Assembly: GCF_902506325.1 (NCBI RefSeq)
Contig: NZ_LR732330.1
Span: 1-64,000, forward strand
Origin: Limnobacter sp. 130
GTDB taxonomy: Bacteria; Pseudomonadota; Gammaproteobacteria; Burkholderiales; Burkholderiaceae_B
Reading direction: 5' to 3'
DNA: 64,000 nucleotides
Part shown: positions 1 to 10,087 of the stretch, piece by piece
Numbering within the stretch: position 1 is the stretch's first letter
How the letters are laid out: every line of letters starts with the position of its first letter
Position numbers and translations under genes: made by a program
Notes under the pieces: generated by a model
Databases searched by the model: none
Told to the model about the DNA's origin: nothing
Seen by the model: the letters and a program-made list of their open reading frames with translations, nothing else

Positions 1-47
1 GATACACACGAACGGGACGTTTCGGGGTAGTTTGAAGTGCACTCATG

Positions 48-74
48 GTGTCCACCAAGAAATGGAGTGGACAC
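48..74. repeat. Inverted repeat in the left intergenic stretch
   Basis: A perfect 8-bp inverted repeat, GTGTCCAC at 48-55 and GTGGACAC at 67-74, is separated by 11 bases and could form a hairpin or bind a dimeric protein. The surrounding stretch, bases 1 to about 315, shows no convincing gene; the short open frame at 32-229 has no ribosome-binding site or recognisable sequence. The role of the repeat is unknown. Confidence 0.4.
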
Positions 75-423
75 TATGGTCGCCGTTCAGAACCAGTCAT
101 TTCAAGATGGGTTTGCTGGGGGCTTACGTTGGTAACCATCCAGAGACATTCTTTGAGTCCTCTCGGAGACCTTATCCAGTCAGTCCCTCAGTCTCTCTCT
201 TAGTGTTATCTAAGGGACTTACCCTATAGGTGGGAGTCATAAGACCAAGAGGTAGAGCCTGCCTTGCTCTCAGCGTTGCTGCCCCTGTGAATGTCTCCGG
301 GCCAACCACCGCCAATTGTCTCCACCACTGCTTCCCGCTACCTCAGGGGAAGACCCTCAGACCATCCCTGTACAAGCCTGTAGCCATCTTTCGGTAAACC
401 TCCGTGGGAGGCCGAAGGCATGG

Positions 424-1794
424 ATGGACGAACCACCCTTACCCCACCCATACCCTGTCATGAACTACCCTACCCACCCCCTAGAGAACCCCTTAGAAAC
501 CCCCTGTGACTCCCCAGTCAAACATAGGGCCATTGACCCATGGAGAGAGGCTAAGACACAGCCAGCCAGAGAACTGGTCAATCGTGTATTCACCTCTGTG
601 CTGGACCATGAGTCCAGAAGTGCCCCACGGAAACGGGCCAGAAAGAAGCAAGATGAATTGATCCTGTATCGTCAGGTCGATATGACCATCTCAAACCTAG
701 CCACCCAGTGTCTGTCAGGAGACACTTTGCCTCTGCGTGTATCCCGGTCTAACCGAGTTCTTGGAGCTACTGATCAATACTCCCGTGGGCAGTGTTTCTC
801 CACGGCTTACCCAAGGGTTCTAGACGCTCTTGGTGCCCCTGAGATTGGGCTATTGAGTCTCACTGTGGGTGAGCCCTACCATCGCAGCCAGCGCCCTCTA
901 AATCAGTCCAGCATCGCTCCTACAGAGAGATTCATTAGCCTGTTGGATGCCCATGGAATTGGTATTGATGACTTCACCAGAAACTTCCAAGGGGAGCCCA
1001 TTGTGTTGAAGTCTGAGAAGCATCGAGACCTCTTTACTGGTGAGGCTTCTTCTGAGAAGTTGCAGTACAAGGACACCTCCGAGACCAGAAGGCTTCGCAG
1101 GGAAATGAATGAGATCAACTCATGGTTTTACCAAGCGGACCTGAACTTCGATGAATCACTATCTGAGAAATTCGTTGATATCTCCATGGTCCAGCTTAGG
1201 AGGATATTCAACAATGGGTCATTCAAGGACGGTGGAAGGCTCTATGGCGGCTTCTGGCAGCGCCTGTCCAAGGAACAGAGAGCCAAGGGACTGAGCATCA
1301 ATGGCAGCGATACGGTGAGTCTGGACTATGGGCAGATTGCCCCGAGAATCCTCTATGCAATGGTGGGGGTGGTTCCCGACTTTGTGGATGCTTATGCATT
1401 ACCTGGACTAGATCCGGACATGTGGCGGCCCATCATCAAGAAGGTGTGTAGCTCCATGTTGTTCAAGGCCAAAGACCCTAAGAAGATCCCAGAGGACATC
1501 CGCAAGAAGTGGCCTGATCCCTTGGTGCGCATTGAGACCCTTGTGGACATGATCAAGAAGCACCACCGCCCAGTTGCTCATTTGTTCTGCAAGGAGGTGG
1601 GCTTTCAGGTGTTCCGTAAAGAGAGTGACATCATGGTGGATTTGCTACTGAATCTAAAATCTCAGGGAATCGTAGGTCTCCCAGTCCATGACTGTGTGAT
1701 TGTCGCTAAGGAGCACGAGGCCTATGCACGGGGAGCAATGCAGGGAGCATTCAGGAAGCACCTTGGGTTTGACCCAGTGGTTGAGAGGGAGTGA
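424..1794 (+). CDS. Family-A DNA-polymerase-like palm-domain protein
   Basis: The C-terminal half resembles the palm of family-A (Pol I type) polymerases. A motif-A-like segment LDYGQIAPRILYA carries Asp301. A motif-B-like helix around RPIIKKVCSSMLF carries Arg335 and Lys339. A motif-C-like segment GLPVHDCVIV carries His422-Asp423. Before motif A lies GGRLYGGFWQ (270-279), which I recall from uncharacterised mobile-element proteins with this fold. At about 456 residues it is much shorter than PolA, and no 3'-5' or 5'-3' exonuclease domain is visible. The N-terminal ~100 residues are proline-rich and basic, then helical. Motif C reads HDC rather than HDE, so activity is uncertain. The start is ambiguous: ATG 424 lies 12 bases after GGGAGG, while TTG 316 and ATG 460 are alternatives in the same frame. 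It is read toward the phage-like remnants downstream. The polymerase fold is inferred from motifs only. Confidence 0.6.
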   Translation: MDEPPLPHPYPVMNYPTHPLENPLETPCDSPVKHRAIDPWREAKTQPARELVNRVFTSVLDHESRSAPRKRARKKQDELILYRQVDMTISNLATQCLSGDTLPLRVSRSNRVLGATDQYSRGQCFSTAYPRVLDALGAPEIGLLSLTVGEPYHRSQRPLNQSSIAPTERFISLLDAHGIGIDDFTRNFQGEPIVLKSEKHRDLFTGEASSEKLQYKDTSETRRLRREMNEINSWFYQADLNFDESLSEKFVDISMVQLRRIFNNGSFKDGGRLYGGFWQRLSKEQRAKGLSINGSDTVSLDYGQIAPRILYAMVGVVPDFVDAYALPGLDPDMWRPIIKKVCSSMLFKAKDPKKIPEDIRKKWPDPLVRIETLVDMIKKHHRPVAHLFCKEVGFQVFRKESDIMVDLLLNLKSQGIVGLPVHDCVIVAKEHEAYARGAMQGAFRKHLGFDPVVERE

Positions 1795-1830
1795 TGCCAA
1801 GTGGGGAGAGGGGAGGAATGTTTGTGTGAA

Positions 1831-1878
1831 AAATTCTCTGAGGTCAACCTCGAGATAATCATGGGGTCAGTTCCCCCC
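1831..1878. repeat. 48-bp imperfect direct repeat, copy 1
   Basis: This stretch matches 2864-2911 at about 40 of 48 positions, including an uninterrupted core GAGGTCAACCTCGAGAT. The core contains the near-palindrome GAGGT-CA-ACCTC followed by CTCGAG. It begins 36 bases after the stop of the polymerase-like gene. Read in frame with that gene, both copies encode a peptide like KFSEVNLEII, and three of the differences fall at third codon positions, so an old coding duplication is one explanation. A protein-binding or recombination site is another. Confidence 0.6.
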
Positions 1879-1997
1879 TCGGCCCGGCCCGTGCCACCTC
1901 CGGTCATTGGAGAGACCATTGAACTGGTTGCAGAACTTCCTAAGTCTTCCACACAGAAGAATAAAGAAGCAGTGGCCACCAAGCTCCTGCCCAATGG

Positions 1998-2300
1998 ATG
2001 CGCCACGACCAGCTCAAGAATATGGTGCTGGAATTAGAAACTATGCGAACAAGCACAGTTCCCCCAGTCTCCTCAAAGATGGGCCGTAATGGTGGCATCT
2101 TCATGGCCCTACAGAATACTGTCGGCCTGATAGCGGTAATAAACTCCGAAGATTCTCGGAGTATCTCCCCTGTGACAACCAAGATGCGACGCGACGGTGG
2201 GACCTACGTGGTCAAGACAAATGGGTTAATCCATGAGATTCGTCAATCTGAGGATTTGCTGATTGCTGCCCCTATCAATCACATAGCACTCAAGGGTTGA
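1998..2300 (+). CDS. Small two-repeat protein of unknown function
   Basis: A 100-residue protein starting at ATG 1998; no strong Shine-Dalgarno is visible. It consists largely of two copies of one ~35-residue unit. The first runs around PVSSKMGRNGGIFM and the second around PVTTKMRRDGGTYVV, each followed by a hydrophobic strand (TVGLIAVI and TNGLIHEI) and then SED. The paired K-M-x-R-x-GG pattern suggests a small beta-rich fold duplicated in tandem. No signal peptide or membrane segment is present. It sits between the first direct-repeat copy and the broken KilA-N gene. No family recognised; the internal duplication is the main argument that it is or was a real gene. Confidence 0.45.
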   Translation: MRHDQLKNMVLELETMRTSTVPPVSSKMGRNGGIFMALQNTVGLIAVINSEDSRSISPVTTKMRRDGGTYVVKTNGLIHEIRQSEDLLIAAPINHIALKG

Positions 2301-2315
2301 TCGCTGAAATTCTAA

Positions 2316-2850
2316 ATGCCGGAAATCCGGCAGTTAAATCCACGGCTGAACGGAGAGGGACGCTACTGCCTGAATGACATCCACAAGGCTGCTGGTGGTG
2401 AGAATCGTCACCGACCTCAGTTCTGGCTGGATGTGACCAGCACCCAAGAATTACTCAATGCTTTGGAAAAGGATGGTATTCCTGCCTTTTATACGAAATG
2501 TGGTCGTACTGGTGTCACCTTCGGAATCCTGAAGGTCGTTTATGCCTACGCATCGTGGATCCAGTCCAACCTTCAACATTTAGGTTCTGGATGCTTTCGA
2601 ACGTCTGGAGACCCGTGGTTTTGCGGTGGCTGATCATGCTGCTGCTGACCTCCAGAAGAACCCACTGAAGTACATGCGGGAACTACTGGAGCAAGCTGAA
2701 GAAATCGAAGCCAAGCTGGCTATTGCCCAACCCAAGGCTGATGTCTTTGATGCCAACTGCGCTGTCAATGGTGAGACCTTGGCACGGTTCGCACGGTCCT
2801 TGCCTCAGGTGAGCTCACTGATGATCAAGAAGGATCTGGCACGGTCATAA
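2316..2850 (+). pseudogene. Broken KilA-N phage antirepressor gene
   Basis: The first part encodes a KilA-N domain: R-x-YCLNDIHKAAG, a W-L-T-x-E-L segment, GVTFG and then YAYASWI. KilA-N domains normally continue S-P-x-F-N-x-K-V-L-D-A-F. Here that continuation is found in the next frame (SPTFNI, stop, VLDAFERLETRGF), so one extra base near 2561-2568 shifts the frame, and a TAG replaces the expected Lys codon a few codons later. Downstream, the second frame continues to 2850 with a helical linker (about 2650-2740) and the start of an antirepressor C-terminal region (ARFARSLPQVSSLMIKKDL), which is cut short. KilA-N proteins are DNA-binding antirepressors of phages and plasmids. This copy has two lesions plus a truncation and is most likely dead. 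The start ATG 2316 has no clear Shine-Dalgarno. Confidence 0.75.
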
Positions 2851-2863
2851 ATATTTCCATTAG

Positions 2864-2911
2864 AAATTCTCAGAGGTCAACCTCGAGATCATCACGGGAC
2901 GAACTCCCCCC
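2864..2911. repeat. 48-bp imperfect direct repeat, copy 2
   Basis: Second copy of the element at 1831-1878, in the same orientation and 1033 bp away, starting just after the end of the broken antirepressor gene. It keeps the GAGGTCAACCTCGAGAT core and ends in a run of C. A stop codon (TAG) lies directly before the frame that encodes the shared peptide, so this copy is not a complete gene. The two copies bracket the two-repeat protein and the KilA-N remnant. Confidence 0.6.
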
Positions 2912-2996
2912 GTACCCCCGCCTCGTTCTTGGGGCTGGTTAGACGCCTCGGGATCGATTAGTCTTTGGGTGAACTCAGAGTTAAGGAACCCAGCCG

Positions 2997-3614
2997 ATGT
3001 TAAATCCCAAGCTTGCCTTGTGTGTTTTGTTAGTCTGTTACCAAGGTCATGCTATGGCTAATCCGGTAATGGAAATCGATGCGGCGGTCCAGCCTCAAAT
3101 GAAGTTGAACGAAAGCGGTGCTATTACAAGTTGTGGAATCAGAGTGTTAGGCCTCCGGACGATTGGGGTAAGTCCTGAAACGCTACGGGTGGACGGTTTT
3201 GACATGTCGACAAATATTTATGACGACGAGCAAGTCTTTGGATTGTCCAAAGTTATCTTTCTACAAGGGAAAATTGGCGAATCTCTTCAATCTGGAAAGT
3301 ATCCGGTCGCGTCTCCATACAAGTCTTTCTGGCTTCGATCTGACACTAGGACTCTTAAAAGCTCTGGCAAATTCATCACAGGGGGATCTGCTCATTCCTT
3401 GATGGTGGGCCATGATTTCAGTGATGCTGTTCAATTTATTGCTGAGGTCCTCGAAAGCCAGACGTTGAGACTTGGCCTAAACTTTGAGGACAGCACAAAA
3501 AACATGGCCTATGTGGCCCGTATACGAATACCACCAGAGGATCAGCGGGAAATAAGTCAATGCCTAGTTGGAATGGCTGAAAAATTACAAGAAGAGATCA
3601 ACCAGCAAAGGTGA
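2997..3614 (+). CDS. Exported protein of unknown function
   Basis: A 205-residue protein with an N-terminal signal peptide (hydrophobic LALCVLLVCY, likely cut after AMA near residue 21), so it should be periplasmic or secreted. The mature part has one Cys near its start (ITSCGIR) and one near its end (ISQCLVG), which could form a disulfide. The middle looks beta-rich and the last 25 residues form a charged helix. The start ATG 2997 is preceded by AAGGAACC, a fair ribosome-binding site. It ends exactly where the convergent resolvase gene ends (3614/3615). No family recognised. Its layout (signal peptide, two Cys, about 150-190 residues) resembles the exported protein at 4392-4841, without obvious sequence identity. 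Confidence 0.6.
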   Translation: MLNPKLALCVLLVCYQGHAMANPVMEIDAAVQPQMKLNESGAITSCGIRVLGLRTIGVSPETLRVDGFDMSTNIYDDEQVFGLSKVIFLQGKIGESLQSGKYPVASPYKSFWLRSDTRTLKSSGKFITGGSAHSLMVGHDFSDAVQFIAEVLESQTLRLGLNFEDSTKNMAYVARIRIPPEDQREISQCLVGMAEKLQEEINQQR

Positions 3615-4196
3615 TTAATCGGCATTTGAGTCTCTGATCCTCATGATGGTCTGCCTAGTGGTGTCGTATTCCCTTGCGAGCTGTGCGATGGGGATGCCCG
3701 CTTTGATCTTGGTGATGACCTCTGACCTCTTAGCTTGAGACAGGGCAGGGGGGCGACCAAAGGTTTTACCCTCGGACTTGGCCCTCTTCAGTCCAGCTTG
3801 GGTCCTCTCGATGAGTAGGTCTCTCTCAAACTCTGCCACCGCCCCCAACACTTGCATGGTCATCCTACCTGCAGCACTGGTGAGGTCTACACCACCTAGG
3901 GCCAAGCAATGGACCCTGACCCCGAGTTGCTCTAGGTGTTCAACTGTGGACCTCACATCCATGGCGTTCCTGCCCAAGCGATCCAGTTTACTCACCACCA
4001 GTACATCACTGTCTTCGAGCTTCTCCAGAAGCCTCAGGAAGCCCTCGCGCTGCATGGCAGGTACCGACCCTGAGACTGTCTCAGCGATGGTCCTAGAGGG
4101 CTTGAGATCGAAGCCAGCAGACTTTATCTCCTGCACTTGGTTGGCGGTGGTTTGGTCGAGGGTGGATACTCGGCAGTAGGCGAAAACTCGAGACAT
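3615..4196 (-). CDS. Serine site-specific recombinase (resolvase/invertase family)
   Basis: A 193-residue protein with the full small serine recombinase layout. The N-terminal catalytic domain begins YCRVSTLDQ with the nucleophile Ser11, then VVSKLDRLGRN and MTMQVLGAVAEFERDLLIERT. A C-terminal helix-turn-helix follows GRPPALS (about 148-190, ending AREYDTTRQTIMRI). The length matches Tn3-type resolvases and DNA invertases (~180-200 residues). Such enzymes form a Ser-DNA link and resolve or invert DNA at paired subsites. Upstream of the start (4213-4316) lies a set of TGTACG inverted half-sites that fits a res site, which favours resolvase over invertase. No transposase is visible in the window, so it may serve dimer resolution of a former plasmid or element, or belong to an element cut off by the window edge. 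Confidence 0.9.
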   Translation of the reverse strand: MSRVFAYCRVSTLDQTTANQVQEIKSAGFDLKPSRTIAETVSGSVPAMQREGFLRLLEKLEDSDVLVVSKLDRLGRNAMDVRSTVEHLEQLGVRVHCLALGGVDLTSAAGRMTMQVLGAVAEFERDLLIERTQAGLKRAKSEGKTFGRPPALSQAKRSEVITKIKAGIPIAQLAREYDTTRQTIMRIRDSNAD

Positions 4197-4212
4197 GGGA
4201 TAGGCTCACGGG

Positions 4213-4316
4213 TGTACTAAAAGGGAGTCCGATTCTCTATGATGTACGGAAATATGTCAACCCTTAGATTCGTACACCCTCAGAACGCTATGTACGAAAC
4301 CGGAGGATTGCGGACA
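4213..4316. other. Putative res site of the adjacent resolvase
   Basis: Immediately upstream of the resolvase start are repeated half-sites with the core TGTACG. TGTACT occurs at 4213, then TGTACG at 4243 facing CGTACA at 4271-4276 (a 34-bp inverted pair with longer arms TGTACGGAAAT and ATTCGTACA). TGTACGAAA at 4291 faces TGCGGACA ending at 4316 (26 bp, imperfect). Tn3/gamma-delta res sites have three subsites of about 28, 34 and 25 bp next to tnpR, with a 34-bp middle site. The spacing here matches that plan, although the third subsite nearest the gene is only a half-site. Function is inferred from position and symmetry. It probably also contains the resolvase promoter. Confidence 0.5.
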
Positions 4317-4391
4317 GAATGGTTCGCTGCAAGGTCTTCAAACTCATGTCATCATGGATCTGGGTTCTTGGAGGCGTATCAGGAGATAACA

Positions 4392-4841
4392 GTGTCGATC
4401 CAAAATTTTATGAATGCTAGATTTGTAAGTTGCATTGGTCTGTTTGGGTTGATCTCCGTTGGCGATGCTCGTGCGGGGGAAATAACCTGTAACTTCAATA
4501 AGGCATTCGTTGTGTATCTAAGTGAACCTGAGCGTATGGAGGTCACCAACATCGCGCAAACCATGCGTATCAGCGGTGAGAAAACAGCCCCTGAGACCCT
4601 CAAGCTCGATGGTAAGCTCAGGGCTACCAACAGCAAATCATGGGCACTCCTTAGGCCGGATGCTATTGATTCACTGAGTATCCAATATGCGGGTAGTTAC
4701 GGTGATCTACTCGCTTTGAGCAAGAAATCAGAGTCCTCTGGAAAGGGGGACAGGTTAGGCCTACACAGTGCCAGTCTGAGTAGTACCGTGGATGAGATGG
4801 TGGTGGTGAAGAAGGGTAGTTGTCAGGTTTCTGAAAAGTAG
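4392..4841 (+). CDS. Small exported protein of unknown function
   Basis: I place the start at GTG 4392, six bases after AGGAG (4381-4385); the open frame extends back to 4239, but that part runs through the putative res site. ATG 4410 is an alternative. The product (~149 residues) begins with a signal peptide (FVSCIGLFGLISV, cut after DARAG), leaving a mature protein starting EITCNF. A Cys near each end (ITCNF and GSCQV) could form a disulfide. The mature part contains APETLKLDGKLRA. No known family. It is followed after 5 bases by the winged-helix-like gene, so the two are probably co-transcribed. Confidence 0.55.
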   Translation: MSIQNFMNARFVSCIGLFGLISVGDARAGEITCNFNKAFVVYLSEPERMEVTNIAQTMRISGEKTAPETLKLDGKLRATNSKSWALLRPDAIDSLSIQYAGSYGDLLALSKKSESSGKGDRLGLHSASLSSTVDEMVVVKKGSCQVSEK

Positions 4842-4846
4842 TCGCT

Positions 4847-5308
4847 ATGAAGAACATTGAGATCTATGAGGAGCTTTCTGCTCTCACCATGGCTAAACTT
4901 TATGATCAGTTTCCGCGTAGTGTGGACATTGATCCGATGGCGTTGGCAATCTTGTTACCTGATGACTTGTGGAGTGAATCTACCGAGATGGTCGATGGTA
5001 ATCCCAATCATCACCAGTACATCAGAGGTAAGAGTCCTGCTGGACTAGCTGTCCCTACAATTAAATGGTTGGCCTCGAGTGGGTTAATTACTTATGCCCG
5101 ACTTCACAACGGCATTTTCGAGGAGACCGCCTTCACTCCGAAGGGGTTCGAGTTGGCATCCAAGAATTCTTCGTCGATGAAACGAGTTGCCAAATACCTG
5201 TCGGATTTGGGCAAAGGCGTAGGCAAGGAGCTACTTATGGATGGCATAAAGTCTGCAATCAAAGAGTTGATCCAGTCGATCTTTATGTCCGCTAGCTCTC
5301 CTGGGTAG
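4847..5308 (+). CDS. Unknown protein with winged-helix-like core and amphipathic C-terminus
   Basis: A 153-residue protein starting five bases after the preceding gene. Residues ~65-105 (PTIKWLASSGLITYARL, then FTPKGFELAS) have the helix-wing spacing of a winged-helix domain, as in small regulators. The C-terminal ~35 residues form an amphipathic helix rich in Lys, Gly and hydrophobics (DLGKGVGKELL, then AIKELIQSIF), which might contact membranes or mediate dimerisation. No signal peptide. The N-terminal helix ends in acidic residues. No family assignment; DNA binding is an inference from predicted fold only. It converges on the lipoprotein gene at 5336. Confidence 0.55.
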   Translation: MKNIEIYEELSALTMAKLYDQFPRSVDIDPMALAILLPDDLWSESTEMVDGNPNHHQYIRGKSPAGLAVPTIKWLASSGLITYARLHNGIFEETAFTPKGFELASKNSSSMKRVAKYLSDLGKGVGKELLMDGIKSAIKELIQSIFMSASSPG

Positions 5309-5335
5309 CCTCAAAGTCTTGCCCTTCTGAATTGT

Positions 5336-6106
5336 CTACTTCTTGGGATTTAGCGAGAAGTCGAACTGATGTAACTCACCATTCAGATCAATTTCAAAGG
5401 TCATTGGTAGTGGCCCATCTAGATTCCGAGCTGGTTGTAAGGTGACGATCTTCGTGTACATCTCACCGGGGGACAGTTCATGTTTCTTGAACGCTGTTTT
5501 CTGTAAATGACTCAGGGTGTTAGCCTCCTCATCACTGGCTTGTTGCATTTGAATTGCACTGTTCTGGTTGGCCTGTTGTCTGATTTGTTCAGCTTGTGCA
5601 GCGTTGTAGGACTGTCCGTAGAATGTCCCAGTCGAGTTCCCTATGTACCCGCTTTGGCTCCCATAATAATTATTTTGATAGGTGCCGCTGTAATTGGTTG
5701 TGGCTGCCGCATTTGCATTCAAGGACGCGCTAAAGGCCTGTAGAGCCGCGCCTATGCGTTTACTCCGGGCAGCACCCTCCGCTTCTTCTACAAGTTGCTC
5801 ATGTGACAACACTGCAGCCTGTTGAGGTCCAATCGAGGCCCTCATGAGTTCAGGTCCAACATAAAGCTTTGTCGAACTCGTGTTGACGATTGATACGATC
5901 AAGGAGATTCTGCGGTTACTTTGTACTCTCTGGGAAACAGGAGAGACCGCTACGGTGTGGGTCTTGGCCGATAGGACCTGCTCTGCACCGTCATTCAACT
6001 TTGATACTTGACCCTCTTTAGGTTGTGCCTGGATGTTGTACGTACTGGCGCAGCCCGTAGAGAAAACAATAGCTGTCAGTGCGAATAGCTTTGTGAGGAG
6101 GTTCAT
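5336..6106 (-). CDS. Lipoprotein with Asn/Gln/Tyr-rich middle
   Basis: Starting at ATG 6106 (the frame is open further upstream, but this start gives a proper leader), the ~256-residue product has a lipoprotein signal peptide, LLTKLFALTAIVFSTGCAS, with lipobox STGC. It should be acylated and anchored to a membrane facing the periplasm. Residues ~60-110 look beta-stranded (SNRRISLIVSIVN). Residues ~140-195 are low complexity, rich in Asn, Gln, Tyr, Gly and Ser. The C-terminal part (TFEIDLNGELHQFDFSLN) is again beta-rich. The overall plan suggests an adhesive or envelope-associated lipoprotein, but no family is recognised. The next gene (6332) is divergent; the 225 bases between them hold promoters and nothing else evident. 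Confidence 0.65.
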   Translation of the reverse strand: MNLLTKLFALTAIVFSTGCASTYNIQAQPKEGQVSKLNDGAEQVLSAKTHTVAVSPVSQRVQSNRRISLIVSIVNTSSTKLYVGPELMRASIGPQQAAVLSHEQLVEEAEGAARSKRIGAALQAFSASLNANAAATTNYSGTYQNNYYGSQSGYIGNSTGTFYGQSYNAAQAEQIRQQANQNSAIQMQQASDEEANTLSHLQKTAFKKHELSPGEMYTKIVTLQPARNLDGPLPMTFEIDLNGELHQFDFSLNPKK

Positions 6107-6331
6107 GGCGTCTATCTTTTTGTGGTTATTGGGATTTCTATTGTGGCAAGTGTGTGTCACGAACCATTTACCGATCGATACTAAAACATGTGATGACCAG
6201 TGTCTTCACCCTAAAAGAGTCCCCTTTGTTTATGTTTGACAGAAGGCGATCGGACTCCCCCCAATAATGGTGGTGACTGCTCGTAGATGATAAGCAGTAC
6301 CCTGAAAGGACATAACAAGGAGACAGGCATC

Positions 6332-6541
6332 ATGAAAAAACGCTACCTATTAGCTGTGACTGTGGCATTGGTAACCGTATCAGGAGCATATGCAGTAAAG
6401 GATTATCCGAAGGAGCCTGTTCTCTTTTATTCAGGACATACTCACGACGAGAATGGTGACGCAGTTAATGCACCCTCCCATAGTGGTGGCCTCGACAGAA
6501 AAGGATGCCATAACAAATCCGTTCCTTACCACTGTCATTGA
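6332..6541 (+). CDS. Exported YHYH-type mini-protein
   Basis: A 69-residue protein with a good ribosome-binding site (AAGGAGAC seven bases before ATG 6332). It has a signal peptide (KKRYLLAVTVALVTVSGAYA). The mature ~49 residues end in SGGLDRKGCHNKSVPYHCH, the Cys/His motif GGxDxxGCH...YHCH of YHYH-type domains, which are found alone or fused to nucleases and calcium-binding repeats. The His/Cys cluster suggests metal binding. It stands alone between divergent and convergent genes. Assignment rests on the terminal motif. A role in the periplasm is expected from the signal peptide; the biochemical function of the motif is not established to my knowledge. Confidence 0.65.
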   Translation: MKKRYLLAVTVALVTVSGAYAVKDYPKEPVLFYSGHTHDENGDAVNAPSHSGGLDRKGCHNKSVPYHCH

Positions 6542-6581
6542 TTGGCCTTCTGGTGATCCCGAGTGATTCAGTCGCGAGGGA

Positions 6582-7052
6582 TCAACTCAGATTATTTTGG
6601 TGACGATTCTCCCTTCGGCTTTTAGATCGACGATCTGTCATTCGGCGCTTCGGTACAAAGGCGTGTATCTTTGTGCCCTGATAGTGCTCTGCAAACGATG
6701 AGCAATTAGCAGGATTCCCCACCATTCTCTTCAGCTCCAGTTGTCCGTGGAAGGTTAAATCAAGGGGCTTTATCCTGCAGTCAGTTGGATCCATATCCAC
6801 TTTGATCCACGCGGGGCCTTCTACTTTGGTCGGGACATTCCCACACTTCCGCCAGTAGCCTAGATGGCGGCTTATTGCAGCAGTGGTGATCCCAGTGTCC
6901 TCGATGAATTGGGCTGAAGTTTTGTTTGGTTCAAGCGCAACTTTAAGAAGTACGAGTAGCCTTGAGATTGTCAAATCGCTATTGATCTTCATGACTTGTT
7001 GAATGAAATCAGCATGTGATTGAAGCGCTTGGTAATCAGACTCGCTAAACAT
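6582..7052 (-). CDS. Helix-turn-helix protein, MarR/winged-helix-like
   Basis: A 156-residue protein with a strong ribosome-binding site (GGGAG eight bases before ATG 7052). Residues ~28-70 (TISRLLVLLKVAL, then TTAAISRHLGYW) form a helix-turn-helix of the type seen in MarR and related winged-helix regulators. The C-terminal ~20 residues are very basic (KRRMTDRRSKSRRENRH) and may add nonspecific nucleic-acid binding. No ligand domain is visible. The upstream gene at 7065-7418 ends 12 bases before this start, so they are probably an operon. It is likely an element-encoded regulator; its target is unknown. Confidence 0.6.
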   Translation of the reverse strand: MFSESDYQALQSHADFIQQVMKINSDLTISRLLVLLKVALEPNKTSAQFIEDTGITTAAISRHLGYWRKCGNVPTKVEGPAWIKVDMDPTDCRIKPLDLTFHGQLELKRMVGNPANCSSFAEHYQGTKIHAFVPKRRMTDRRSKSRRENRHQNNLS

Positions 7053-7064
7053 TTTGATTACTCC

Positions 7065-7418
7065 CTAAGCGTGTGCGCGTTTCCGACTGATGTCGATCTT
7101 GTGGTTAAGCCATGACAAGGAGAATTCGAATGTCTGGCACCTGTCATTACTGTTATCTCGAAGGCGGCTAACTCTTGGGAGCACATTGAACGATTTTTCT
7201 GGAATGCCACATAGTTCAGTATTGAAAATTCTGAGATAGACATATCCCTGAGTAATCTCAGCGGTTATAGGGTTACTAGTAAAAATCAAAATCCTCTCCT
7301 TGTATTTTTGGCTAATGATCGAATAAGGTAACGGGGAAGTTGAGAGGTCGTAAACGATTGGAAGAAATAAAATAATCCACAACGGATTTATATTCTTTGT
7401 GTCCGCGGGGCGATTCAT
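7065..7418 (-). CDS. Hypothetical protein with N-terminal hydrophobic segment
   Basis: A possible ~117-residue protein from ATG 7418 (TTG 7427 is an alternative). A hydrophobic stretch near the N-terminus (PLWIILFLPIVYDL) may anchor it in the membrane; the rest is mixed and ends in basic residues. Its stop codon sits in the ribosome-binding region of the downstream HTH gene, consistent with coupled translation. The ribosome-binding site is weak and the codon use is AT-rich. No family recognised, and it could be a chance frame. Confidence 0.35.
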   Translation of the reverse strand: MNRPADTKNINPLWIILFLPIVYDLSTSPLPYSIISQKYKERILIFTSNPITAEITQGYVYLRIFNTELCGIPEKSFNVLPRVSRLRDNSNDRCQTFEFSLSWLNHKIDISRKRAHA

Positions 7419-7559
7419 TCTGCTCAATAAGTTGGGCTTTTTTTTGTTGTCACCGGATGCTTGTCACGGTGTTGCGCAAAGTTGACGCTTGTTTATTATT
7501 TGTCGAAGGCTTTAATTGAAAAGCGTTCATTGGCCTCTGAAGTCAACGGGAAATTGTCT

Positions 7560-7982
7560 ATGAAAGATAAAGGATTTAGATCGCTCCATTGGTCATTCTA
7601 TTCAGCCTTGTCTGGGGTTTCATTTGTAGGCCTTATGACTTCCGCTCAACTCCACGACAGAATAGGTCCGTCTTGGCTATATGATCCTTTATTGGCACTT
7701 TTTGGCATGTCGACTGTGATCATGGCGACCTTTGCGATTGTTCACCTGATGATTCTTGAAAGAGAAGATGAAGATGTTTATTTGAAACTTAAAGCTCGAT
7801 TGCAATCGAGACATGCGGGTTTGATTACTGGTGTTGGTCTATTGATCTTCGGATCTTCATTTCTCCTGATGGTCTTGGCACTAAGCGTCCAAGCCTTTTT
7901 GATCGTGGTTCTCACATTAATCGTTATGCGCTACTGTGTAGCCAGATTTTTTAGTGCCCATGATGATGACTTTCTTGGATGA
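7560..7982 (+). CDS. Four-helix membrane protein of unknown function
   Basis: From ATG 7560, preceded by GGGAA, the product has 140 residues and four hydrophobic segments (around FYSALSGVSFVGLM, LLALFGMSTVIMATF, GVGLLIFGSSFLLMVLAL and FLIVVLTLIVMRYCV) separated by short charged loops. It is therefore an inner-membrane protein. The frame is open upstream to TTG 7461, but that part lacks a ribosome-binding site. No family recognised. Its AT-rich codon use resembles its left neighbours rather than the chromosome to the right. Confidence 0.55.
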   Translation: MKDKGFRSLHWSFYSALSGVSFVGLMTSAQLHDRIGPSWLYDPLLALFGMSTVIMATFAIVHLMILEREDEDVYLKLKARLQSRHAGLITGVGLLIFGSSFLLMVLALSVQAFLIVVLTLIVMRYCVARFFSAHDDDFLG

Positions 7983-8006
7983 GTTGGGATACTTCAGTCA
8001 CGCCGG

Positions 8007-8020
8007 ACTTGGTACCAAGT
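8007..8020. repeat. 14-bp perfect palindrome ACTTGGTACCAAGT
   Basis: A perfect palindrome 24 bases after the membrane protein gene; ATACTT occurs again 12 bases to its left (7990-7995), inverted relative to AAGTAT at 8017-8022. It lies in the gene-free strip between the foreign segment and the chromosomal genes (7983-8212), which otherwise holds only the terminator at 8151. It could be an attachment-type or operator sequence; no matching copy was seen elsewhere in the window. Confidence 0.4.
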
Positions 8021-8150
8021 ATAGATTGATCTTGATCGCTCGCTGCTAAGAAATCTGCTAATATGAAACTGAAATTATCCGGTAAGTTATTGAAAATAAG
8101 AGACAATAATTTGGGGTTAAGTGAATCCCTCCTTCTCCGCCAAAAAACAG

Positions 8151-8172
8151 AAAGCCCCGTAAGGGGCTTTTT
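8151..8172. terminator. Bidirectional intrinsic terminator
   Basis: AAAGCCCC and GGGGCTTT (8151-8158 and 8163-8170) form an 8-bp stem with loop GTAA. T runs follow on the plus strand (CTTTTTG) and on the minus strand (CTGTTTTTTGG). It ends the minus-strand choice-of-anchor-I gene and insulates it from the accessory region. Confidence 0.85.
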
Positions 8173-8212
8173 GTTGACTCTCGGCACGCAGGAGTGGCGT
8201 TGGGTGAGAAGC

Positions 8213-10087
8213 TTAGAAGCTCAAATTTACCCTCATCACCGCAGTGCTACCACTCACCTCATTGCCAACCACCAACAAGGGTTCACCTGTTGGGGAATCC
8301 TTGGCTGGAATGAATACCAGTCCCTCTGGTCCCAGGTCGCCCACTGTTGGCAGCACCGCGGGGTCTGCGGGATTGTTGGTCCAGTCGTCGCGGGTGTTGT
8401 AATAGTCCACGCGCACGGGTGCCGAAGGATCGGTTACGTCATAAACCAGAATTCCGCCGATGCGTTCAAGACCAATGAACGCAAAAGTCTTGTCGCCGAT
8501 CTTGCCTACAGCTACACCTTCGGGCTCAGGGCCTTTGGCGTCGCTTCGGCTGTCCAGTGCGTTGCCTTCGTCATGGCCTGAATTGAAAAAGTCTTTGCAA
8601 TTCAGGTTGCGGGTACTGCCCACTTTACAATCATCGCTGGCCAGGAAGCGTTCAATTTCAGAGCCTGAGTCGAATACGAGTACACCTTCTTCATTGAAAA
8701 TCGAGAATGAACGCGCACCGAATGAATACAGTTTGTCGTACATCAGGCGATCGCCTGCAGGGTCTTCTACACCCGTGCTGTTAAATAGAATAGGCGCGCC
8801 ATTGGCATCAGTGCGATAGCCCATGGTCCACGTTACGTTCAAGCGACCGAGTTGATCATCTGCTCGGCAGCCGTTCGGGTTTCCTGCTACGGCACCACAG
8901 TATCCAAACACCGTTGGGTTAAGCAAGCCGCCATTGGCCAAGTCGTCGAGTTGAGCTGGCAAGTCGTCATTCAATCGACCAGCCCAACCATTTCGGTTCA
9001 CCAGGTGTTTCACCCGGAATTCTTCAACAAAGCCTTTGCTTGCATCACCGGCGAAGTAAGCTGGGTTGTCCTCACCCCAGGTGCGCGCATCGCCTTCGTT
9101 GGCTGTTATCAAATAGGTATTGCCGTCTGCAGCCGTGTAAGAGGCCATGGCATCGGGTAGGTACAAGCCAATCACACCTGCCCAGTTGCGAATGTTGATC
9201 GTGTCACCATCGGAGTCAGAGGCATCAAATTCATTTCCAACGGCACCGTGATCTTTTTCGCCCAAAGGGAATACGTTAGTCACGGTTGCTGTCGCAATGT
9301 CGATTTTTGCAATTGCATTGTTTTCTTGAAGGGTCACGAATGCCGTGGTGCCGTCAGCGGATACAGTGATGTATTCAGGTTCGAAATCTTGTGAGGCCGA
9401 AGCTCCAGGCCCATAGATTCGAATGCCTTGGGCACGCAAACTGGCCTCTTGCCCTGTGAATGCGCTAAAGCTGGCGGTTCGCACGATCGGGGCACGTGGG
9501 TCACGCACGTCAATTACGCTGATACTGCCTTCCGGGTCAATTTGGTAGTCGTCACTGGGTTCGCCCTCGTTGGCCGTGAGTACCGTATTACCGTCGGGTG
9601 TGAAGGTGATCATGTCGGGTTGCGCACCCACAGTGCGTGCGCTTAGCAACGTCAAATCACTGGCGCGATACAAAGCCATGCGACCCAGATTGGTTTTGAT
9701 CGGTGCTTCAATGGCCACAGCCACAATTCCATTCGCGACTGCGACGCTGTTGACTACCGAGCCTGCAAGTACATCGTTGGTGTCTAGCGTGTTGATCAAC
9801 GTGGGGTTTTCAGGATCAGACAAATCAAATACATCCACAGCACCTGCCAAAGCGTTGACCATAAACAGGCGTTTACTGGCTGGGTCATATGCTGGAATTT
9901 CAGCTGCGCTCTCATCGAACTGGTTGGTGGAAAATCCACCAATCTTTTCCAGAGTCACGCTGGCTGGCGTTACCTCGGAAGGAGTTGTGGTGTTGTTGGC
10001 CGAGCTTTCGCCATTACCGCCACATGCAGCGAGGGTAGCTGCTGCAATCACACTGAGTGTGAATAATTGAATTTTGGTCTTGTTCAT
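8213..10087 (-). CDS. Choice-of-anchor I family lipoprotein (beta-propeller)
   Basis: A 624-residue lipoprotein: the signal peptide ends LAAC (Cys near 22), followed by a Ser/Thr/Asn-rich linker. The body resembles the choice-of-anchor I family, beta-propeller proteins often annotated as phytase-like or alkaline-phosphatase-like. Repeated strands carry the signatures VDVFDLSDPENP, GSISVIDVRDPRAP, NAIAKIDIAT and GGILVYDVTDPSAP, and the segment TANEGE(P/A) recurs (about 172 and 332). GPEPEGVAVG and LGPEGLVF near the C-terminus are typical of the family. Acidic loops (FDASDSDGDT) could bind calcium. It should sit on a membrane facing the periplasm or outside. A strong hairpin lies directly before its start codon and no Shine-Dalgarno is evident, suggesting translational or attenuation control. 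Confidence 0.8.
   Translation of the reverse strand: MNKTKIQLFTLSVIAAATLAACGGNGESSANNTTTPSEVTPASVTLEKIGGFSTNQFDESAAEIPAYDPASKRLFMVNALAGAVDVFDLSDPENPTLINTLDTNDVLAGSVVNSVAVANGIVAVAIEAPIKTNLGRMALYRASDLTLLSARTVGAQPDMITFTPDGNTVLTANEGEPSDDYQIDPEGSISVIDVRDPRAPIVRTASFSAFTGQEASLRAQGIRIYGPGASASQDFEPEYITVSADGTTAFVTLQENNAIAKIDIATATVTNVFPLGEKDHGAVGNEFDASDSDGDTINIRNWAGVIGLYLPDAMASYTAADGNTYLITANEGDARTWGEDNPAYFAGDASKGFVEEFRVKHLVNRNGWAGRLNDDLPAQLDDLANGGLLNPTVFGYCGAVAGNPNGCRADDQLGRLNVTWTMGYRTDANGAPILFNSTGVEDPAGDRLMYDKLYSFGARSFSIFNEEGVLVFDSGSEIERFLASDDCKVGSTRNLNCKDFFNSGHDEGNALDSRSDAKGPEPEGVAVGKIGDKTFAFIGLERIGGILVYDVTDPSAPVRVDYYNTRDDWTNNPADPAVLPTVGDLGPEGLVFIPAKDSPTGEPLLVVGNEVSGSTAVMRVNLSF

Follow-up and report, generated by a model that had tools for sequence, protein, structure and literature searches.

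A TV-Pol-type family-A polymerase as the probable primase-polymerase of a putative genomic island in the tRNA-Ser(CGA) gene of Limnobacter sp. 130

What does a stand-alone family-A palm do on a mobile element? We propose that the 456-residue protein encoded at positions 424-1794 (forward strand) of the window, by which we mean the whole 64,000-nucleotide stretch analysed, is probably its island's own primase-polymerase, a member of the TV-Pol branch that would start and extend DNA copying. A replication polymerase of the element was one option raised in the initial annotation of this DNA, and predicted structure, profile comparisons and gene context all lend it support. TV-Pol, divPolA2 and CCPol-MP are already in print; new here are the island in tRNA-Ser(CGA), the union of phage and island proteins in one family, the replacement of the residues that discriminate between sugars, and the counts of linked genes.

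The reading frame is uninterrupted, with zero internal stops, and has the length that the initial annotation gave for it. Translation may begin at ATG 424 or at ATG 463; the start is uncertain because residues 1-31 are modelled poorly (pLDDT < 50 in the AlphaFold2 model) and the alignment with relatives becomes good only at about residue 37. A Pfam scan of the protein named no family above the cut-off, its sole match being weak and unrelated, and found no exonuclease or other nuclease domain; upstream of the palm, the model holds only a 185-residue N-terminal domain, in agreement with the earlier remark that an exonuclease domain is missing. The protein does match PHROG family phrog_4756 (E 1e-35), whose function is not assigned in PHROG. 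We describe the gene as one for a TV-Pol-type family-A polymerase on the combined evidence of the open frame, the PHROG match, the alignments, the model and the profile comparison.

The palm itself is predicted with confidence. The AlphaFold2 model built from an 18-sequence alignment has a pLDDT of 87 and a pTM of 0.84, and a Foldseek search of the PDB returned 105 matches at E <= 0.001, the best 50 of which are all family-A DNA polymerases (best match E 2.0e-6, probability 1.00). The TM-scores are low, about 0.2-0.33, because the protein shares only a part with the matched polymerases. In a search of predicted viral structures, the top 11 rows (E <= 1.3e-16) include, where named, proteins of Aeromonas and Rheinheimera phages; one phage protein among the 11 is recorded as a DNA polymerase, and family-A polymerases follow among the later rows. 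Profile comparison leads to the same family: hhalign aligned the window family with three genuine PolA sequences over 199 columns, at E 2.2e-5 and a probability of 76, and the GR hairpin, motif A, RxxxK and motif C all fall in register; the single-sequence controls gave E 0.22 for RecA, 0.6 for an integrase, 0.68 for a helicase and 0.099 for a primase. Similarly, the phrog_4756 model also picks two ordinary polA genes (L051 and L052, E 2.4e-5 and 4.9e-5). In the 12 members of the broad alignment, Pfam DNA_pol_A (PF00476) gave no match up to E 1 and the RNA polymerase family PF00940 reached no better than E 0.16, in one; the profile of that alignment found only weak matches among PDB sequences, a designed protein at E 0.42 and then Taq polymerase at E 2.6. 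Taken together, the predicted structure and the profile comparison uphold the family-A palm that had been proposed from motifs.

The N-terminal domain (residues 32-216, positions 517-1071, forward strand) shows, in the full and the separate models, an order of elements weakly like that of a winged helix. Modelled alone it reaches a pLDDT of 83, and the Foldseek matches listed for it are mostly MarR-type winged helices, the best at E 0.17 with a probability < 0.5, so that the predicted likeness is suggestive only. Long helices are predicted by AlphaFold2 at residues 46-66, 75-98 and 219-237; the TV-Pol description has an N-terminal thumb made of two antiparallel helices.

The active site is conserved almost throughout the family. 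All on the forward strand, and placed by alignment except where stated, are a beta-hairpin with Gly271-Arg272 (residues 258-275, positions 1195-1248; strands modelled at 258-262 and 270-275), motif A (residues 295-313, positions 1306-1362) with the catalytic Asp301 at 1324-1326 and Ala306 at the position of Pol I E710, the fingers with Asp322 and R335xxxK339 of motif B (positions 1387-1464), and motif C with His422-Asp423-Cys424 (residues 418-428, positions 1675-1707). The initial annotation had picked out Asp301, Arg335/Lys339 and His422-Asp423; each is correctly placed and invariant in both the 12-sequence and the 18-sequence alignment, and in the former N232, G271, R272, R286 and Y324 are invariant as well. 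A larger alignment of 45 rows was made without duplicate fetches of one gene and without frames of < 330 residues; it retains two frames that do not reach motif C (L038 and L048) and a pair that is 91% identical (L010/L016), and relatives L076-L084, fetched later, stand outside it. In these rows D301, G271, R272 and R286 are present in 45 of 45, K339 in 44 (the exception being L038), R335 in 43 (exceptions L038 and L070, the latter an alignment gap), H422 and D423 in 43 each (exceptions L038 and L048) and D322 in 42, the remaining three being E, E and A. Thus both aspartates of the palm are kept. The motif C of the window protein reads HDC, as noted at the outset, and its third residue is small throughout the branch: among the 43 rows with HD it is S in 19, G in 14, A in nine and C in one, and never Glu. 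We also observed a highly divergent relative on a short viral contig (L082 7347-8327, a 327-residue frame) whose motif C is HDC like that of the window.

Which nucleotides might such a site accept? The position equivalent to E710 is occupied by His in 17 of the 45 rows, Phe in 14, Gly in four, Tyr in four, Met in two, and Ala, Trp, Asn and Glu in one each, and we reject a conserved Glu steric gate on that count. Phe occupies the F762-equivalent position in one of 43 readable rows, and the window protein has Ser343 there. CCPol, according to the paper that describes it, retains both Pol I residues (PMC7581432). Their replacement is one of four points that would suit a family-A-derived DNA-directed RNA polymerase or an RNA primase using NTPs; the others are a motif C whose third residue is small, which the KASIA phage RNA polymerase shares (HDS), the RNA polymerases reported among the structural matches of divPolA2 (PMC11348598), and an RNase-H-like gene linked in nine of 45 loci. 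We nevertheless regard RNA synthesis from NTPs as quite unlikely to be the role. The His, Phe, Tyr or Trp that stands at the gate position in 36 of the 45 rows may itself exclude NTPs in most members, judging from residue identity, and because these side chains may still act as a gate the choice between NTPs and dNTPs cannot be read from the sequence. The Tyr-Gly of motif B is common to Pol I and T7 RNA polymerase. It is absent here, none of the 43 readable rows having Tyr at position +12 of motif B, and hhalign aligned the KASIA RNA polymerase over 34 columns around motif C only (E 0.014, probability 3). Likewise, the RNase-H-like frames, recognised by an iterated profile, pass the Pfam cut-off in three of the nine loci (L021, L066 and L081); two lie below it (L023 and L084), four have no RNase_H match, and by eye only the frame of L081 keeps its catalytic residues. 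On these grounds we rejected the RNase-H-like gene as a firm nuclease partner.

The family is patchily spread. Relatives occur in 212 phage records (115 of Rheinheimera, matched by tblastn from the window protein, 86 of Vibrio, eight of Aeromonas and three others), in three plasmid records and in five of 369 genomes of the class, the window's own counted. The phrog_4756 model matches 27 of 397 genomes of the phylum, two of them through ordinary polA, and among 60 genomes of the window's kin, its own included, the gene is found in the window's own only. A single-protein search with the window protein against genome contigs and viral contigs returned no relative. The broad 12-member alignment was too varied for pattern scans, and single relatives and narrower alignments were used instead, two of these scans being empty. 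All 12 members of the broad alignment, Barba19A included, match phrog_4756. A tree of 48 rows, drawn without L016, L038 and L048, sets six phage rows apart on one branch (support 90/89); several of its branches are long and its deeper joins are unsure. As judged by these sequence comparisons, the phage and island proteins are one family. Two partial relatives were seen on the Paracoccus versutus plasmid pBEN (L015, 1989-2435 and 2509-3132), about 4-4.7 kb before a longer member, and the second of them covers profile positions 14-181.

In Limnobacter, the gene appears to lie in an island whose right end is at 8123-8142 (forward strand), where the last 20 bases of tRNA-Ser(CGA) form the right attachment site, the intact tRNA of relatives lying near the same flank. 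Nine of 16 genomes of the genus, the window's own included, have the gene 8213-10087 in some form, and five relatives from the genus were compared by BLAST at the boundary. Similarity stops at 8123 in L109 and L112; in L110 and L113 a 53-bp piece (8123-8175) is separated from the main match, which runs from 8182 or 8250; and in L111 similarity starts at 8044. An intact tRNA-Ser(CGA) is found in the region in all five relatives, and in the window no more than its final 20 bases are left. Elsewhere in the genome these 20 bases recur exactly just once (G000:C3:867297-867316), at the end of a tRNA that is intact (C3:867297-867386) and has a 5' side syntenic with the relatives. Sixteen bases beyond the 3' end of this tRNA is a 552-aa frame with DUF6538 and phage-integrase domains, for which blastp gives integrase matches at 17 of the other loci. 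From the tRNA remnant, the end of synteny near 8123 and the integrase beside the intact tRNA copy, we therefore infer that the left 8.1 kb of the window is the right part of an island, that its left part is on another contig, and that a DUF6538 tyrosine integrase placed it in the 3' end of tRNA-Ser(CGA). In L111 (11905-14552), tRNA-Ser(CGA) and a second stretch like 8044-8172 are about 2.5 kb apart, so that this site may also be used there by a further small insert. Near the start of the contig and upstream of the polymerase gene, a repeat at 102-130 that recurs in the genome is probably the end of an insertion sequence, which would have split the assembly or the island at this point. The longer contig-start repeat (window 1-130) is common to C3:1-147 and C3:1120305-1120431, and 102-130 recurs at several further sites.

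What else does the island carry? Downstream of the polymerase gene are broken pieces of the KilA-N/antirepressor type (ORFs 1998-2300, 2316-2633 and 2626-2850; 1998-2850 overall, forward strand), of which 2316-2633 matches Pfam KilA-N (E 2e-8) and the flanking two have PHROG matches (E 4.6e-5 for 1998-2300 and 0.0046 for 2626-2850); they are possibly two degraded tandem copies. An intact serine resolvase/invertase follows on the reverse strand (3615-4196; Pfam E 1.1e-36) and matches recombinases at 15 other loci (blastp). The phage-type remnants reported beside the gene are thus real, and an intact recombinase lies close by. A 73-bp direct repeat (forward strand) occurs after the polymerase gene (1817-1889) and again after the KilA-N pieces (2850-2922); the two copies are 74% identical, share a GAGGT-CA-ACCTC palindrome, and could be a regulatory or recombination site. 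The ORF at 4847-5308 (153 aa) matches a phage family whose function is not assigned (phrog_2266, E 3.4e-12).

The survey of neighbouring genes in other genomes ties the polymerase to loci with recombinases. It covers 45 loci, a set that differs from the 45 rows of the alignment, with genes clustered by BLAST and clusters named by Pfam on representatives. A serine recombinase is present in 20 of the 45, at least one of which (L008, a phage, 5.7 kb away) is probably unrelated, and a DUF6538-type integrase in 18. In 14 loci a protein of 224-293 aa adjoins the polymerase gene or lies within about 0.6 kb of it; its alignment shows C-x4-C, C-x2-H and RHGS motifs, L079 departing from RHGS, and the label zinc-finger-like is our reading of this cysteine/histidine motif. 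Pfam had no match for three representatives, and their sole PHROG match was a weak one to HNH (L079, E 0.03). A search of the window genome at E 0.001, run without a positive control, found no such partner. The islands of L063, L064, L066, L073, L081 and L013 contain type I or type III restriction-modification and other conflict genes, as seen from annotation, PADLOC and inspection by eye. A defence system was considered and rejected, as PADLOC returned no match for three polymerases or for the one zinc-finger-like protein tested.

Two further explanations of the protein were weighed. The first is a repair or gap-filling DNA polymerase capable of primer extension only. Its Pol I-like fold and motifs accord with such a role, which has been suggested as an option for divPolA2 (PMC11348598), and CCPol is reported only to extend primers when MP is absent (PMC10061031). 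The patchy, recombinase-linked occurrence and the lack of a nuclease domain argue against it, as does the separate PolA with a complete polymerase domain that the host genome carries; because of that PolA, 424-1794 encodes an extra polymerase, and we consider a repair role unlikely. The second is that the protein is a relic, dead in catalysis or in decay, or that it serves defence or regulation with a reused fold. Broken KilA-N pieces adjoin the gene, a contig-edge repeat lies upstream, and related islands carry conflict genes; set against these are the intact frame, the full complement of catalytic residues and the absence of a PADLOC match in the three members tested, and we hold this second explanation to be very improbable. 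Because its KilA-N neighbour is broken, this copy of the island may nonetheless be decaying.

We return to the primase-polymerase reading. During an excised, replicating stage, DNA synthesis would be started on single-stranded island DNA, and the polymerase would then extend the strands. Asp301 and Asp423 would carry out two-metal catalysis, the Arg272 hairpin would hold the template, and Arg335 and Lys339 of the minimal fingers helix would serve the incoming nucleotide or the growing strand. The N-terminal domain probably aids template binding, as the linked zinc-finger-like protein probably does in other islands. The analysis shows the predicted fold, the kept active site, the tie to the family, the right end of the island and the linkage to recombinases; catalysis, priming, a part in copying the island and the role of the partner are inferred. 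Several points count against this reading. The characterised member, CCPol, is much closer to Pol I, needs MP to prime and adjoins a helicase; among the 11 frames scanned in 424-8122 Pfam recognised no helicase, the upstream side being cut by the contig edge. The broken KilA-N neighbour, the search of this genome that returned no zinc-finger-like partner, the roles favoured for divPolA2 by its authors and the weak result for Microcystis phage LMM01 (below) weigh on the same side.

A broader proposal, tentative and on balance doubtful, concerns the whole branch that unites phage divPolA2 with the proteobacterial island TV-Pols. Its members might be family-A primases that lack the sugar discrimination of Pol I and make RNA or mixed primers, with the zinc-finger-like protein replacing an OB-fold partner in template binding and, in some islands, the RNase-H-like protein acting on the primer hybrid. 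If true, bacterial RNA priming would have a third chemistry in addition to those of DnaG and the AEP enzymes. Because the branch is without CCPol's sugar-gate residues and often has a different, conserved partner, it allows a direct test of the way in which a family-A palm turns into a primase and integrative islands replicate themselves.

How does the protein compare with known systems? With Pol I it shares the palm, the GR hairpin and motifs A, B and C in register, and it differs in having no exonuclease domains, small fingers, no YG in motif B and no Glu after HD. CCPol and MP of SCCmec are described as priming DNA synthesis de novo with dNTPs (Bebel 2020; PMC7581432), and CCPol is the only characterised member to the knowledge of its authors, as that paper puts it (PMC7581432); a survey of PolA-SSB pairs in Bacillota followed (Rice 2023; PMC10061031). 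The initial annotation knew of no described function; for the family this does not hold, given these results and the primase-polymerase function predicted for TV-Pol in 2008 (PMC2579912). It had also suggested untemplated or RNA-templated synthesis, which we set aside as the role since nothing in the locus points there, although there is a precedent in vitro in the reported addition of nucleotides to 3' ends by CCPol-MP (terminal-transferase-like) and its extension of primers on RNA (reverse transcriptase) (PMC7581432). The likeness to CCPol-MP lies in a family-A catalytic subunit encoded by a separate gene of an integrative island with recombinases. However, CCPol is much closer to Pol I, whose two sugar-gate residues the window branch almost always replaces, and its partners are an OB-fold MP and a helicase, whereas the linked protein of the window branch, where present, is zinc-finger-like.

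The phage arm has a name of its own, divPolA2, given to a barbavirus protein in a 2024 paper of which Yutin is reportedly the first author. That paper describes a palm predicted to be active, no exonuclease, and an N-terminal domain for which no similarity to known domains could be detected, and its authors lean towards a DNA polymerase for repair or an RNA polymerase (PMC11348598). TV-Pol is named there a single time, as background and without reference to divPolA2 (PMC11348598), and in the accessible text of the literature under the two names we found no statement joining them. The Barba homologues L011 and L078 belong to the window family (by phrog_4756 for L011) and to the same tree, the difference being that the six phage rows group apart from the others; no accession is shared, and from host phage, size and fold we take these homologues to be the divPolA2 of the paper.

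Finally, the closest description is that of TV-Pol itself, defined by Iyer, Abhiman and Aravind in 2008 by a helical thumb, a hairpin Arg, two palm Asp residues and fingers with Asp and RxxxK (PMC2579912). The window protein has the minimal superfamily-A core and, at 456 residues, falls within the 400-600 of TV-Pol proteins; its hairpin bears the absolutely conserved Arg (R272), its palm the two conserved Asp residues (D301 and D423), and the fingers inserted in the palm the Asp (D322) and RxxxK (R335 and K339). Three of the four structural features are thus present, the long helices noted above being candidates for the fourth, the thumb, and by the three the protein fits TV-Pol. A profile of the window family found no match in Microcystis phage LMM01, named by Iyer as a TV-Pol holder; in a second scan the best ORF of that phage, MAP_030 (L087 22749-24293), scores weakly (E 0.012, the next 1.1; by hhalign E 7.2e-4, probability 26), adjoins a transposase and is probably the TV-Pol that was meant. 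The elements described in 2008 carry resolvase and integrase genes and sit at restriction-modification hot spots, and one combines TV-Pol, a resolvase and a Bro-N/KilA-C gene (PMC2579912). The Limnobacter island resembles the subset without a D5 helicase, with its resolvase in the window and its integrase at the other attachment site, and its trio of polymerase, broken KilA-N pieces and resolvase recalls that one element in particular.
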